Below are positions 30,564-36,018 of a stretch of DNA of 64,000 nucleotides, one piece after another. Position 1 is the first letter of the stretch, and each line of letters opens with the position of its first letter. Source of the DNA: Aphrocallistes beatrix (Eukaryota > Porifera > Hexactinellida > Sceptrulophora > Aphrocallistidae); the NCBI GenBank assembly GCA_963281255.1, contig OY725504.1, positions 3,286,001 through 3,350,000 of the forward strand, in the 5' to 3' direction. The translations under genes and the position numbers were made by a program. Below the pieces are notes generated by a model. It did no database searches and was not told the origin of the DNA. It saw only the letters and a list, made by a program, of their open reading frames with translations.

Positions 30564-30810
30564 GAGGTAAATTCAATTTCATTATTTGTATGCATTTAGT
30601 CGTTTCCTTTATCAATGTTGCCATTAGATAAATTTCCCTTTGTTATTCTGATATACTTTCACTTTTATAACTACCAGACACAATTGTGCGAAGTAAAACA
30701 GACCGATAAAAATTTAAGCATCGATTTATTTTAATATTAATAATAATTTACGGTACCTCTGACTCTATGTCCTTGATTGGAAATATTAGATCGGATAGCT
30801 GCTGGTGTTA

Positions 30811-33800
30811 ATGTCTCGATCCAAAGCTTCAGATCTCCGTTCGGAAGCTTGGACCTCGCTAAGCAGATGCTACCTCTATATAACTTCTAAAATACGACTG
30901 CAGCAAAGTAGTAGGTACACTCACAACCTCAACGATATATACTCTCCTCTAGTTATCACCGAGAATCCTATCTTATCCAGTCATCATAATTCCATATCAG
31001 ATCGAATTGAGAATGTTTTTCCGCTTGAAGAAGTGATACTAAAAACTCCGTCCCAACTCTACCTAGCTCTCGGACAGATCGGCACTGGGAAAACTTGGCT
31101 GGGAAGGCACATAGCTTCCACGTGGTCGAGTGATTTAGTAAACGAAGGGAAGAGCATTCTAATTTACATCGACTGTGAAATACCCGAGGTGAAATATGGA
31201 GTTGACATCTTGAATATCATGTCTTCTCTACCGATGAAAGAAAATTCAGCTTTTATGACCTTTTTCGAACAAGAAATGAGAAAAGACGGTCGTGATTTCA
31301 TCTTCATAATAGACGGATATGACGTAATACTACGGAGCTCTCCGAATAATCCATTAAAACAAATCATTGAGAGAAATTTGTTCGCGAAATCCACCGTCTT
31401 AGTGTTGTCCCGTCCATGCTTACATTTCTACGAATCAAATGAGATTTATTCAGAATATAAGCAACTTGAAGTTTTAGGTTTTTCAAGCAGAAGCTGCATT
31501 GAATATTTTACTAAAACTTCCATGAAATTCTTTAATGGGTCTCAGGTCCTGTTTTCTTTTTTGAACCTCTTTCCGGACCTAAAAATTATCGCACGATACC
31601 CTATTTTCGCATACGCGATTATTAAAAAAATAATTCGTTATGAAATTTTTGAGTATTTTTTCCTCCTTGAAGCTGCAATGAAGGATATGCTCGTTTCAAT
31701 AATGAATCAGCAGCTGTCTCACTATCTGACTGGGGACATCAAATCGCACCACTTGACTATTGTTAACCTTAACACAATACCAAGTGTGAGGAAAAAATCA
31801 CTGGAAAACTTGTATAAAATTGCATTCGAGACTTTCTCTGTTCCGACTCGTATTGTACAAGAAGATATCACGACGTTTCGTGAGGGGTTCGCACCTGATG
31901 GGTTGGGGCTATTCCATACCTCTTTTGTACCACATGGTAATGGGTGGAAGAAGCAGTTAAGTTTCGTACACTCTGTTATACAAGAATTTCTCGCTTCTCA
32001 ACATCTTAAAATGATTGATACATCTGCGAATAATTACTTTAAGTCCATACTTCCTTTCTTGCAGAGAGAACCGATACCGTACTATTTCATCCTTGGTTGC
32101 AAAAAGGATATTTTGATAAATGAGAAAGAGAAAGATATTATTGGATATTTTCAAGACAAAAAGGAACAGTCCATACCAGAATTCGCTCTCGTTCTTAACA
32201 TGTTAATTGATTACGGTTTTTTACAAACGGCTCAGCAATATTTTCCAATATTATTTCCTAAAAACAAAATTGAAATATCAGATTATCCGATGAATGGATG
32301 GTTGTTGCGTGGCGTTTCTTTCTTTCTGAACAAGTTCACCGATATAACTGCTCTGTACCTCGTAAACTGTTCTGTAACAGACCAAACTTTGCATATTCTT
32401 CTTGATACGATTAACTCTAATTCTAAGGTTGAATTTATAAGCTTAGAGAACAATGCACTCACTGATGCGTCTGTCTCGCTGATACGAAACGCTTTTCAGT
32501 CAAGTTTATCCTTTTTAAAGAAACTTGACTTGAGTAATAACTCAATAAGCACCAGTCATGTAATCACACTCGAATCAGATTTCCCTCATATTGAGTTTAT
32601 TTCTCAGCAATCCATCCCACAGGAGATCCTGAATCGAGGCAGGGAATTTGTTGAGGAGTATAGAAGGGCTTGTAATGAAGGCAGTCAACAGATTAAGTTT
32701 TTCAGACTTATGGTAGTAGGTTCTGAGGGAGTCGGCAAAACAAGTTTATTAAAAGCATTGAGAGACCAACCTTTTGAGGAGAAAGAAACATCAACAAATT
32801 TCATCGAAAAAACTGACATTACTATCACTGAACTCAGTAACGACTGGAGTCAAAATCTAAGTTTTAAGGAGAGACTGAAAGAGACACGGGATGACATTCT
32901 TGCCCACATAACTGTTAAACGTGTTAAATCCTTGACAAACCTATCTAATATACAAGATACGGATTTAAAGGATTTTATAATGCAACCTTCAAGTCCTGAT
33001 AAAGTCGATAGTGACGAAATCGTGTTTGAACCCATTGTACAGGCTGATAGTCTCTCTAAACCAGATCTTGGTGAAGAAATAAAACTCGAAAGTATCGAAA
33101 CACCTACAACTCCTCCAATTTTAAATGGATCTCAGTGTGATGTTGATTCCTCACCAAATACTCCGATTGAAGTATGTGCCCCCCCTAGTGCAGTTGAAAT
33201 TGAATGTGAACCTGTACCGACACTTCCCAGTATCAGTTTAGAGGATGTAGATACAGGTGTGAAAGTAGCGGACATTAAGAATGAACCTCCGGTAACTTCA
33301 AACTTACAGTTAGCCAGTTTACCTCTGAAGAATATTCAAGATCACTGGAGCAACCAACGTGCCCTGTCTCCGATCGAGTTTTTCACAGTGTGGGATTTGG
33401 CTGGGCAATCTTATTTTTTTTGCATGCACTCCCTCTTTTTAACACCTCGAGCTGTCTACATATTACCAGTCGATCTATCCGTCGATCTGAAGGGGCTAGT
33501 AGCTCAGCGGGAGAGGGAGACGGGTAGGTTGGACAGGAGAGAGATAAAAGGGAAAGTGACACATCTCGACATTATCCAGTACTGGATAATGACAATCTAC
33601 TCTGTTGCTCGCTCTGCGGCTAGTGACGTGTACGAGTGCAAGTCCAGGATTATAATTGTGTTCACCAAATCTGATCGCGTTGATAATGCTGTCGAGAAAG
33701 CTGCGAATGATTTCAAGTTAATCACAGATTCGCTCGCGCGAAAGAGCAACTGTCTATCGATTGTAGATACAAAGTTCCATATTGTGAGTGCTAAGGACAG

Positions 33801-36018
33801 AAGTATCGATATGTTTGTCCAGGTAAAGAGAGCCATCCATGATAATGCGGAGCAAATCGGTTTCGATCACGCGTTACCTGTGAGGTGGTTAGATTTCGCA
33901 TTGTGTATACTGTCTAAGCAAAATCCTGTGATAGGTAAGGCGGAGATAACGAAAATCGCGAGTGACACGCATTGCTCCCAGGATTATGCCGAAATTTTGC
34001 AGCTTTTTCACTCGATAGGCGTATTTTTCTTCAGAAAAAATATCCTAGTTAAATCGCTACAGAACTTATTGGATATAATTTTTCACATTGTCTCACCCAT
34101 GAACTGTTTAAACTTAATCAATTCCACACATAAAATCGCAAAAAGTAAACACAAACAAGAGCATTTCAAACAAGACCTTGATAAAGCGGAGAAGAAAGCC
34201 ATTCTAACAGACGATATCTTGAACGTAATCTTGCAACATAACAGCCTCACAGATGTCAAGTATGAGATAGTACAGCTCTTAGAAGAGTTTGGTGTGATGC
34301 TGTTCAAGCATGGACATGGAAGGCATCAAGAGCACTATATCCCTTATTTATTCTTGGAAGATATATCAACCATATATCAACCTGAATCTACGGATTTGGT
34401 GATCTTCATCTACTTCCCAGATTACCAAGTACCTACTTCTTTCTACTTCGCACTGCTGTCTCTATGCCTGAGCCAAATTTGTAATGTTAAGTCATCCAAA
34501 TCGTATAGAAATGAACCTAAACTTGCATTTGACTGTGTAAAATTTCAGTGGGAAAACAAACTCACCTGTATCATTGATTTCACCGAGCATCAGCCGTATA
34601 TTCGTATAATATTCCAGGACATCGAATATTCTAACGTAGAGACAAGCTCTAAAATGTTTTCCGTCATCTTCACGTTACAGAAATGGATTGTACATATACA
34701 GCGTGAATTAATTTTAGCTGGGAAACTCGCGAAAATTGTGCTCAACTGCCCGTGTAATTCGTTCTCGCATACCCTTAGACCATGTGTATATTTCGAAACA
34801 TTCTTAAAGCAGTCAGCTTTGGAGACGCACTTCTATTGTAAAGTTAAACAGACCTATTTCCCGTGGAGGTTTTTCAACAAGCTACTCCCCTTCAAGTATG
34901 TCCCGCCCGAATTGGGACTAACGTTTCTAGAAAAGTTTCATAATCATGTCGTGCAGAAATTAGATCTAGAACCGATTTTAGAAAACCTGTTTGAAGAGGG
35001 GCTAGTTAACGGCGAAGAGTTAGCGCAAATTTACCAGTTGGAAGACAAGGAGAAAGTTGATGTTTTGTTGCAAAATTTTCCTAACAAAGGAAAAGAATGG
35101 GCGCACAAATTTTACAGAGTTTTAAAATCTAGAAATGAAAATCACGAAATAAGATCTCTCTTCGAATCATTCATTATCGAATCTCTCTATTCTGAAATTC
35201 CCAAAGGTGAAGATCTTGATTTCGGGCGATACCCCATTCTAAACAATCCCTGCGGAATTTGTCTCATAATCCATATCGAAAACTTTGATGATAACTCTAA
35301 GAGACGAGGCTCTCACATTGATTTTCTCAACTTGAAAGAAACCTTTGAGAATATGAACTTCTTAATTTACGCTTACGAAGACTTGACTAAACTTGAAATC
35401 CGTAAATTATTGAACAATATTCGTTCTATGGACCACTCGGCTTTTGACACATTTTTCTGCATAATAATGTCCCATGGTGATGAAGAAGATGGGATTTACA
35501 CAAGAGACATGCTTACTATCAAGAAAGAGACCATCATGAATCCGTTCACTGCAGATGAATGCCCTAGTTTAGCCGGCAAACCGAAAGTATTTATTATCCA
35601 GGCTTGTAGAGGACAGAGACAGGACCAAGGCTTTGAGTTAGCTGCTAAAACTGATCTCTCTGAAGGTCCGGATAAACCCGAACCAGTTCAAACAGACGAC
35701 CTACCGAGTTTACCAAATGTCAAACCGAATGAATTTAACTTATCTTCCCCTCAAGAGGGACAAAAAAAAGTCGCCAATTACGCAGATTTCTACATTGCAC
35801 AAGCCACTGTGAAAGGTTACGTGTCGTATCGTTATACGACGAAAGGAAGTTTGTTTATCAGTGCTTTTTGTTCCGTGCTAAAATCCGCGAGGTACCATCA
35901 CCATTTGGTGGATATTATGATCGAAGTGCGTAGGAGGGTATCGATGGTGGATGTGAATAATAACATTCAGTGTCCAGAGGCAACTGATACGTTCACAAAG
36001 CAATTGTATCTATTCTGA
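30811..36018 (+). CDS. NACHT-LRR-ROC-COR-CARD-caspase protein (single chain)
   Basis: A 1735-residue single-exon gene; ATG at 30811 (the frame extends two codons to a GTG). Order: NACHT NTPase with Walker A GQIGTGKT (88-95) and Walker B FIFIIDGYD (about 168); leucine-rich repeats (about 520-585, LENNALTD, LKKLDLSNNSIS); Roc GTPase with P-loop GSEGVGKT (637-644), DLAGQ (862-866) and TKSD (952-955), and a 115-residue acidic insertion between G1 and G3; COR domain (from about 1023); a helical CARD-like domain (about 1367-1450, LEPILENLFEEGLVNGEEL...FPNKGKEWAHKFYRVL); a caspase (about 1480-1735) with histidine in IIMSHGDEEDG (H1555), cysteine in QACRG (C1599), P1-pocket arginines in KRRGSH and YVSYRYTTKGS, and an Asp-containing linker between large and small subunits. 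Nucleotide sensing could drive CARD oligomerisation and caspase activation in cis. Domain calls are firm except CARD (likely). The trigger is unknown. Confidence 0.9.
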   Translation: MSRSKASDLRSEAWTSLSRCYLYITSKIRLQQSSRYTHNLNDIYSPLVITENPILSSHHNSISDRIENVFPLEEVILKTPSQLYLALGQIGTGKTWLGRHIASTWSSDLVNEGKSILIYIDCEIPEVKYGVDILNIMSSLPMKENSAFMTFFEQEMRKDGRDFIFIIDGYDVILRSSPNNPLKQIIERNLFAKSTVLVLSRPCLHFYESNEIYSEYKQLEVLGFSSRSCIEYFTKTSMKFFNGSQVLFSFLNLFPDLKIIARYPIFAYAIIKKIIRYEIFEYFFLLEAAMKDMLVSIMNQQLSHYLTGDIKSHHLTIVNLNTIPSVRKKSLENLYKIAFETFSVPTRIVQEDITTFREGFAPDGLGLFHTSFVPHGNGWKKQLSFVHSVIQEFLASQHLKMIDTSANNYFKSILPFLQREPIPYYFILGCKKDILINEKEKDIIGYFQDKKEQSIPEFALVLNMLIDYGFLQTAQQYFPILFPKNKIEISDYPMNGWLLRGVSFFLNKFTDITALYLVNCSVTDQTLHILLDTINSNSKVEFISLENNALTDASVSLIRNAFQSSLSFLKKLDLSNNSISTSHVITLESDFPHIEFISQQSIPQEILNRGREFVEEYRRACNEGSQQIKFFRLMVVGSEGVGKTSLLKALRDQPFEEKETSTNFIEKTDITITELSNDWSQNLSFKERLKETRDDILAHITVKRVKSLTNLSNIQDTDLKDFIMQPSSPDKVDSDEIVFEPIVQADSLSKPDLGEEIKLESIETPTTPPILNGSQCDVDSSPNTPIEVCAPPSAVEIECEPVPTLPSISLEDVDTGVKVADIKNEPPVTSNLQLASLPLKNIQDHWSNQRALSPIEFFTVWDLAGQSYFFCMHSLFLTPRAVYILPVDLSVDLKGLVAQRERETGRLDRREIKGKVTHLDIIQYWIMTIYSVARSAASDVYECKSRIIIVFTKSDRVDNAVEKAANDFKLITDSLARKSNCLSIVDTKFHIVSAKDRSIDMFVQVKRAIHDNAEQIGFDHALPVRWLDFALCILSKQNPVIGKAEITKIASDTHCSQDYAEILQLFHSIGVFFFRKNILVKSLQNLLDIIFHIVSPMNCLNLINSTHKIAKSKHKQEHFKQDLDKAEKKAILTDDILNVILQHNSLTDVKYEIVQLLEEFGVMLFKHGHGRHQEHYIPYLFLEDISTIYQPESTDLVIFIYFPDYQVPTSFYFALLSLCLSQICNVKSSKSYRNEPKLAFDCVKFQWENKLTCIIDFTEHQPYIRIIFQDIEYSNVETSSKMFSVIFTLQKWIVHIQRELILAGKLAKIVLNCPCNSFSHTLRPCVYFETFLKQSALETHFYCKVKQTYFPWRFFNKLLPFKYVPPELGLTFLEKFHNHVVQKLDLEPILENLFEEGLVNGEELAQIYQLEDKEKVDVLLQNFPNKGKEWAHKFYRVLKSRNENHEIRSLFESFIIESLYSEIPKGEDLDFGRYPILNNPCGICLIIHIENFDDNSKRRGSHIDFLNLKETFENMNFLIYAYEDLTKLEIRKLLNNIRSMDHSAFDTFFCIIMSHGDEEDGIYTRDMLTIKKETIMNPFTADECPSLAGKPKVFIIQACRGQRQDQGFELAAKTDLSEGPDKPEPVQTDDLPSLPNVKPNEFNLSSPQEGQKKVANYADFYIAQATVKGYVSYRYTTKGSLFISAFCSVLKSARYHHHLVDIMIEVRRRVSMVDVNNNIQCPEATDTFTKQLYLF

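Follow-up and report, generated by a model that had tools for sequence, protein, structure and literature searches.

A single gene of the glass sponge Aphrocallistes beatrix encodes, in one uninterrupted reading frame, a NACHT domain, probable leucine-rich repeats (LRRs), a Roc GTPase, a COR region, a CARD and a caspase. It occupies positions 30811..36018 of the window (the 64,000-nucleotide stretch of contig OY725504.1 that was analysed) on the + strand, as do all features of the gene given below. The product is read here as an initiator caspase that acts in innate immunity as a single chain under two NTP gates, and this interpretation of its anatomy is given a probability of about 0.6. An NLR module (NACHT, winged helix and a short LRR) appears to have been placed in front of a ROCO-CARD-caspase module.

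The frame is free of stops for 1735 codons from its ATG (1735 amino acids plus stop), as the sequence-only reading had reported. The open stretch starts at 30799 and has 1739 codons in all, so that only four open codons lie ahead of the ATG. Chance does not explain its length, since 300 Markov-1 resamples gave no open frame beyond 198 codons. The coding score of this frame is the highest of the six in 33 of 33 scoring windows starting from 30811 to 35611, the LRR-Roc junction included. It is not the highest in the final two (35761 and 35911), where the caspase profile match persists. The gene begins 247 bases after TAF1A and ends 792 bases before GPAA1; both of these, as well as TELO2, read as single frames. 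A GH5 cellulase-like gene with a GH5 C-terminal domain is found at window:15469-16875. Many single-exon genes have been reported in Aphrocallistes vastus (PMC10282587).

The NACHT domain (residues 86-236; 31066..31518) is detected by Pfam at 6.2e-10, with 39.6 bits against a cut-off of 26.7, and the NACHT of NLRP3 matches residues 85-236. The two motifs from which a nucleotide switch had been proposed are in place: Walker A, GQIGTGKT, at residues 88-95 (31072-31095), and a Walker B-like FIFIIDGYD at residues 163-171 (31297-31323). A Walker B consensus usually carries Glu; this one reads DGYD and has none. FVHSVIQEF (residues 385-393; 31963..31989) aligns to the F-x-H-x3-QEF of another NLR in the genome, L031, and is presumably the winged-helix His motif of NLRs. 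The three marks of an NLR, Walker A, Walker B (short of its usual Glu) and the winged-helix His, are thus found in this half. L031 was the single NLR of the genome chosen for comparison and is only distantly related, with 22% identity over 341 columns, and among the 32 genomic matches listed for the whole protein none but the protein itself covers residues 1-543. The LRRs are few in number. A motif scan gives three RI-type repeats at residues about 512-597 (32344..32601), starting at 512, 540 and 569, and in a phmmer search of the PDB residues about 490-587 find NLRP3 and ribonuclease inhibitor, each stretch weakly. The earlier claim of LRRs is partly backed by these motifs and weak PDB matches and not by Pfam, where LRR_1 reaches only E 0.14, below the cut-off.

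The Roc GTPase (residues 630-1010; 32698..33840) is matched by Pfam in two stretches, the better at 632-679 (2.7e-11; 44.2 bits against a cut-off of 27). In the PDB the ROCO family profile matches LRRK2 and CtRoco over Roc, the LRRK2 Roc at 1.2e-9. The G motifs are G1 GSEGVGKT (residues 637-644, 32719-32742), G3 DLAGQ (862-866, 33394-33408), G4 TKSD (952-955, 33664-33675) and G5 SAK (993-995, 33787-33795). The first three had been named as a second nucleotide switch, and the Pfam match agrees with this. Between G1 and G3 lies a variable insert (residues 701-850; 32911..33360) that ranges from 11 to 398 amino acids in nine aligned members of the family; it changes fast and is probably a disordered loop. 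In two paralogues (L015:2241-6209 and L026:3237-5969) the insert, of 398 and 168 amino acids, contains STIQSDPI(E/D)S-like tandem repeats.

The COR region (residues 1011-1365; 33841..34905) has no Pfam COR-A match and, searched with the family profile, no PDB match. Profile-profile comparison is more telling. When the family was compared by hhalign with five other ROCO genes (five of the ten loci in the genome that Pfam COR-A matches), the segment from G3 through COR aligned colinearly with a probability of 98 and E 2.3e-13. COR alone gave a probability of 27, P 6.6e-4 and a score of 36.1, whereas 200 column shuffles reached 24.7 at most and the reversed target scored 13.5. All eight aligned paralogues share this region at 28-54% identity. 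The COR domain of the sequence-only reading is recovered in this way, by profile comparison with its shuffle control, and is missed by direct Pfam and PDB searches. From these alignments it is a divergent COR directly after Roc, the arrangement that, with the G motifs, characterizes a ROCO protein.

The CARD (residues 1372-1443; 34924..35139) scores 29.5 bits against a Pfam cut-off of 23.9 (7.6e-7). The family CARD profile finds BIRC2 in the PDB at 7.8e-4 and then, more weakly, MDA5 and APAF1. CARD-caspases carry the CARD directly ahead of the caspase, and it is directly N-terminal to the caspase here. The caspase domain (residues 1482-1733; 35254..36009) matches Pfam Peptidase_C14 at 2.9e-53 and caspase-3, -8 and -9 in the PDB. 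The hallmarks of these proteases are a His-Cys dyad, QACxG, the P1-pocket arginines and an Asp-containing linker. All of them are present in what is predicted to be a complete caspase, as had been proposed: H1555 (35473-35475), C1599 (35605-35607), R1498 (35302-35304), R1674 (35830-35832) and five Asp in the p20-p10 linker (residues 1603-1658; 35617..35784), which is likely the region of self-cleavage. R1498 aligns to the first pocket Arg of caspase-3, whose P1-pocket role it is assumed to share, and is invariant in 8/8 aligned family caspases. The translated frame thus gives matches above the Pfam cut-offs for NACHT, Roc, CARD and Peptidase_C14; a missing CARD or caspase match would have told against the fusion.

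The fusion protein belongs to a family. In a whole-protein search of the genome, 27 of 133 first-look candidates were scored and 32 matches listed; besides the window, at least nine loci have Roc-COR and a caspase (L009, L010, L012, L013, L015, L016, L017, L026 and L038). The frame is open through the caspase in eight of the ten, window included; a break interrupts the caspase of L026, and stops occur in L038. A degraded locus on contig C7 and a fragment on C13 match as well. An alignment of the window protein with eight paralogues (L038 left out) gives identities to the window of 35-63% for Roc G3-G5, 16-41% for the CARD (only 16-25% in L009 and L017) and 44-59% for the first part of the caspase. 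The Pfam CARD cut-off is exceeded by the window protein, L010, L012 and L016, and not by L009, L013, L015, L017 or L026. The GKT of Roc G1 is kept in all nine aligned proteins, and the catalytic His and Cys in all eight that reach that region. Individual copies depart from the pattern; for example, the pocket Arg region is gone from L016, whose G3 reads DLAEQ, and L015 has QACKG at the caspase Cys motif. The tree (midpoint root, one fork open) places the window protein with L010, L012, L016, L013, L015 and L026, and L009 and L017 apart. About 3 kb upstream of L026 there is a long frame (L030) that by eye resembles a Helitron/PIF1 helicase.

The front ends of these proteins differ. No NACHT was found near the other ROCO-caspases when about 0.2 to 7 kb upstream of each locus (except one stretch before L015) was searched with the window N-terminus or a two-sequence NACHT-LRR profile. 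L009:1331-7201 has caspase-like stretches ahead of Roc (Pfam 6.3e-9, two stretches) in which SHG and QACRG are absent by eye, and its N-terminal part matches no PDB chain at E 0.01. The N-terminus of L017:1557-6650 resembles it by eye and matches no Pfam family. Both look like dead-caspase front ends, from the Pfam match in L009 and motifs missing by eye. A frame upstream in L010 (L010:1332-2003) shares 28% identity over 190 columns (E 5e-18 in a one-sequence database) with the L031 N-terminus, which itself matches DED just below the cut-off; the L010 frame has no Pfam match and is called DED-like because of this similarity. In L012 a shorter upstream frame also resembles the L031 N-terminus (E 2e-7). 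From these comparisons, the ROCO-CARD-caspase chassis is constant across the family and the front end varies. The NACHT-LRR occurs on the window copy only, among the matches found, so that what sits on this chassis is an NLR sensor. The combination does not stand alone: with at least nine further Roc-COR-caspase loci, none with a NACHT found beside it in the upstream DNA searched, the novelty is the NACHT-LRR graft.

The same distribution could be explained if the ROCO-CARD-caspase core were the working unit and the NACHT-LRR had been added to its N-terminus recently or neutrally, altering localisation or doing little. The core is conserved in eight aligned paralogues with differing N-termini, and the NACHT-LRR is seen on one copy only, among the matches listed and in the upstream DNA searched. 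However, the NACHT retains its Walker A, Walker B-like and winged-helix motifs within an open stretch of 600 codons, which is unlike a decaying passenger, and a mere addition is considered unlikely. Less likely again is that the locus yields an NLR and a ROCO-CARD-caspase as separate products, because of an internal promoter or because its transcript is spliced at the LRR-Roc junction (32554..32640). In six paralogues (L010, L012, L013, L015, L016 and L026) an acceptor-like site is visible by eye just before an RGxEF motif, which probably indicates an upstream exon there, and acceptor-like sequence occurs near the same place in the window. Introns in this genome carry varied GTA donors, so that a donor-site scan is a weak guide and an intron at the junction could escape it. 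Against two products, the frame, coding score and repeat pattern cross the junction of the window uninterrupted. A 48-base GT-AG stretch at this point can be removed with the frame preserved, and the product is therefore fused either way. The short distances to TAF1A and GPAA1, each a single frame, also oppose this view. An assembly artefact joining two genes is highly improbable, since a chance join would seldom keep the frame, the coding score and a similar GC3 in the three parts of the gene (0.39, 0.43 and 0.40).

In the genome as a whole, nine CARD matches were obtained (11 candidates scored), five of them in the ROCO-CARD-caspase family, one being the broken L038. The remainder are in two CARD-PDZ frames and two CARD-only frames. 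The former (L046 and L047) exceed 1100 amino acids, are coiled-coil-like by eye, have a PDZ match (over the cut-off in one of the two) and presumably resemble CARMA. The latter (L044 and L045, on contig C8) are near-identical, 101 amino acids long and possible CARD regulators. None of these four CARDs adjoins a NACHT among the 94 of 176 NACHT candidates listed, a list that does not include the window's own weaker NACHT. DED gives eight matches, none over the cut-off, and six of them lie in the frame of a NACHT on this list. NB-ARC has no match in the genome (14 candidates scored), while NACHT is abundant. The fusion protein, too, has no NB-ARC match in Pfam even at E values as high as 1, which sets it apart from the APAF1 type. 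The CARD model matched just five of the ten ROCO-caspase loci, so that CARD sensors acting in trans may be missed. Because domain models overlook divergent members, the CARD, DED and NB-ARC counts are read as trends rather than absences. This context favours action in cis. Sensor and caspase on one chain, as originally suggested, is the economical interpretation given that all domains share one frame and that none of the CARDs detected elsewhere in the genome adjoins a NACHT on the list. Two further observations concern effectors. In one 50-kb stretch (G000:C17:338779-388861) there are 21 of the genome's 58 caspase-domain matches. Gasdermin has no match in the genome, and a control search was equally silent, so that its absence does not follow.

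A single-chain caspase with two nucleotide gates could work in the following way. At rest the chain would be kept closed by the LRR/NACHT part. A trigger, perhaps a ligand, would lead to ATP binding by NACHT and then to NACHT oligomerisation. Roc-COR dimers, governed by their GTP state, would join neighbouring chains, and the adjoining CARDs would then self-assemble. The caspase domains, pressed together, would cleave the Asp-containing p20-p10 linker, with cell death as the expected outcome. The anatomy fits such induced proximity. The single-chain reading draws on the one frame, intact catalytic and pocket residues, nucleotide motifs, the coding score across the junction and the CARD directly before the caspase. 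It draws as well on five of nine genome CARDs in the family with no NB-ARC match, and on no second NACHT-LRR among the 32 listed matches or the upstream DNA searched. It is weakened by a NACHT-LRR without a close relative among those matches, by few and sub-cut-off LRRs, by a Walker B without Glu and by a coding score that fails in the last two scoring windows. A bolder version, somewhat more apt to be wrong than right, is that this is a one-chain inflammasome gated by ATP (NACHT) and then GTP (Roc-COR), which in this lineage replaces a separate CARD sensor of the APAF1 or NLRC type and belongs to a family whose N-terminal front ends are swapped.

A protein of this type would carry on one chain an infection sensor, a switch of the GTPase kind and a full cell-death protease, functions that other animals divide among two or three proteins. 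If the fusion works as proposed, the activation of caspases by NLRs could be examined in it on one natural chain, with sensor, dimerising GTPase, CARD and protease at fixed stoichiometry and the sensor-less paralogues as controls. There is also a hint of how CARD-caspases may be run where an NB-ARC sensor went undetected.

In the inflammasomes of NLRC4 or NLRP3 with caspase-1, sensor and CARD-caspase are separate proteins. The fusion shares their NACHT-LRR sensor, CARD and initiator-type caspase but has them on one chain, with Roc-COR between sensor and CARD; unlike NLRC4 and NLRP3, no N-terminal CARD or PYD was found in it. In the apoptosomes APAF1/caspase-9 and CED-4/CED-3 a STAND ATPase brings CARD-caspases together. 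A STAND ATPase is expected to drive CARD-caspase proximity here as well, in this case with NACHT in place of NB-ARC, LRR in place of WD40, and in cis. With the ROCO proteins LRRK2, DAPK1 and CtRoco it has in common the Roc G motifs, COR and an LRR before Roc, and it differs in a caspase where a kinase or death domain would be, a long variable G1-G3 insert and a NACHT before the LRR.

The full NACHT-LRR-Roc-COR-CARD-caspase order was found in none of the literature titles and abstract openings searched (subscription text, figures and supplements excluded), in agreement with the sequence-only reading that no such protein had been described. That statement is qualified by the sponge Dysidea avara, where the legend to a figure of NLRs (Fig. 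2) names CASc and COR among the domains drawn, and NLRX has 2-4 LRRs; a relative, or part of the order, may already be depicted there, and by legend and text, as far as these were available, the order itself is not described (PMC12909245). In a survey of metazoan inflammasomes, sponge NLR and caspase-1 are treated as separate proteins (PMC11508797). Roc-COR occurs with TIR or death domains in sea anemones (PMC5094078) and in Aplysia (PMC9334734). The direct-connector proteins of amphioxus, which pair LRR or TNFR with a caspase, have been interpreted as links from recognition to apoptosis; the accessible text of that paper mentions neither Roc nor a NACHT-ROCO-CARD-caspase (PMC2575513). Bacterial LRR-AP-GTPase-COR proteins have the same LRR-GTPase-COR-effector order and exchangeable C-terminal effectors, a caspase among them, with NACHT and CARD unmentioned in the accessible part of the account (PMC8195603). 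In giving ROCO proteins a kinase or a death domain, the earlier statement was thus too narrow. An animal genome with a ROCO-CARD-caspase chassis and differing front ends comes close to the design of these bacterial ROCO conflict proteins.
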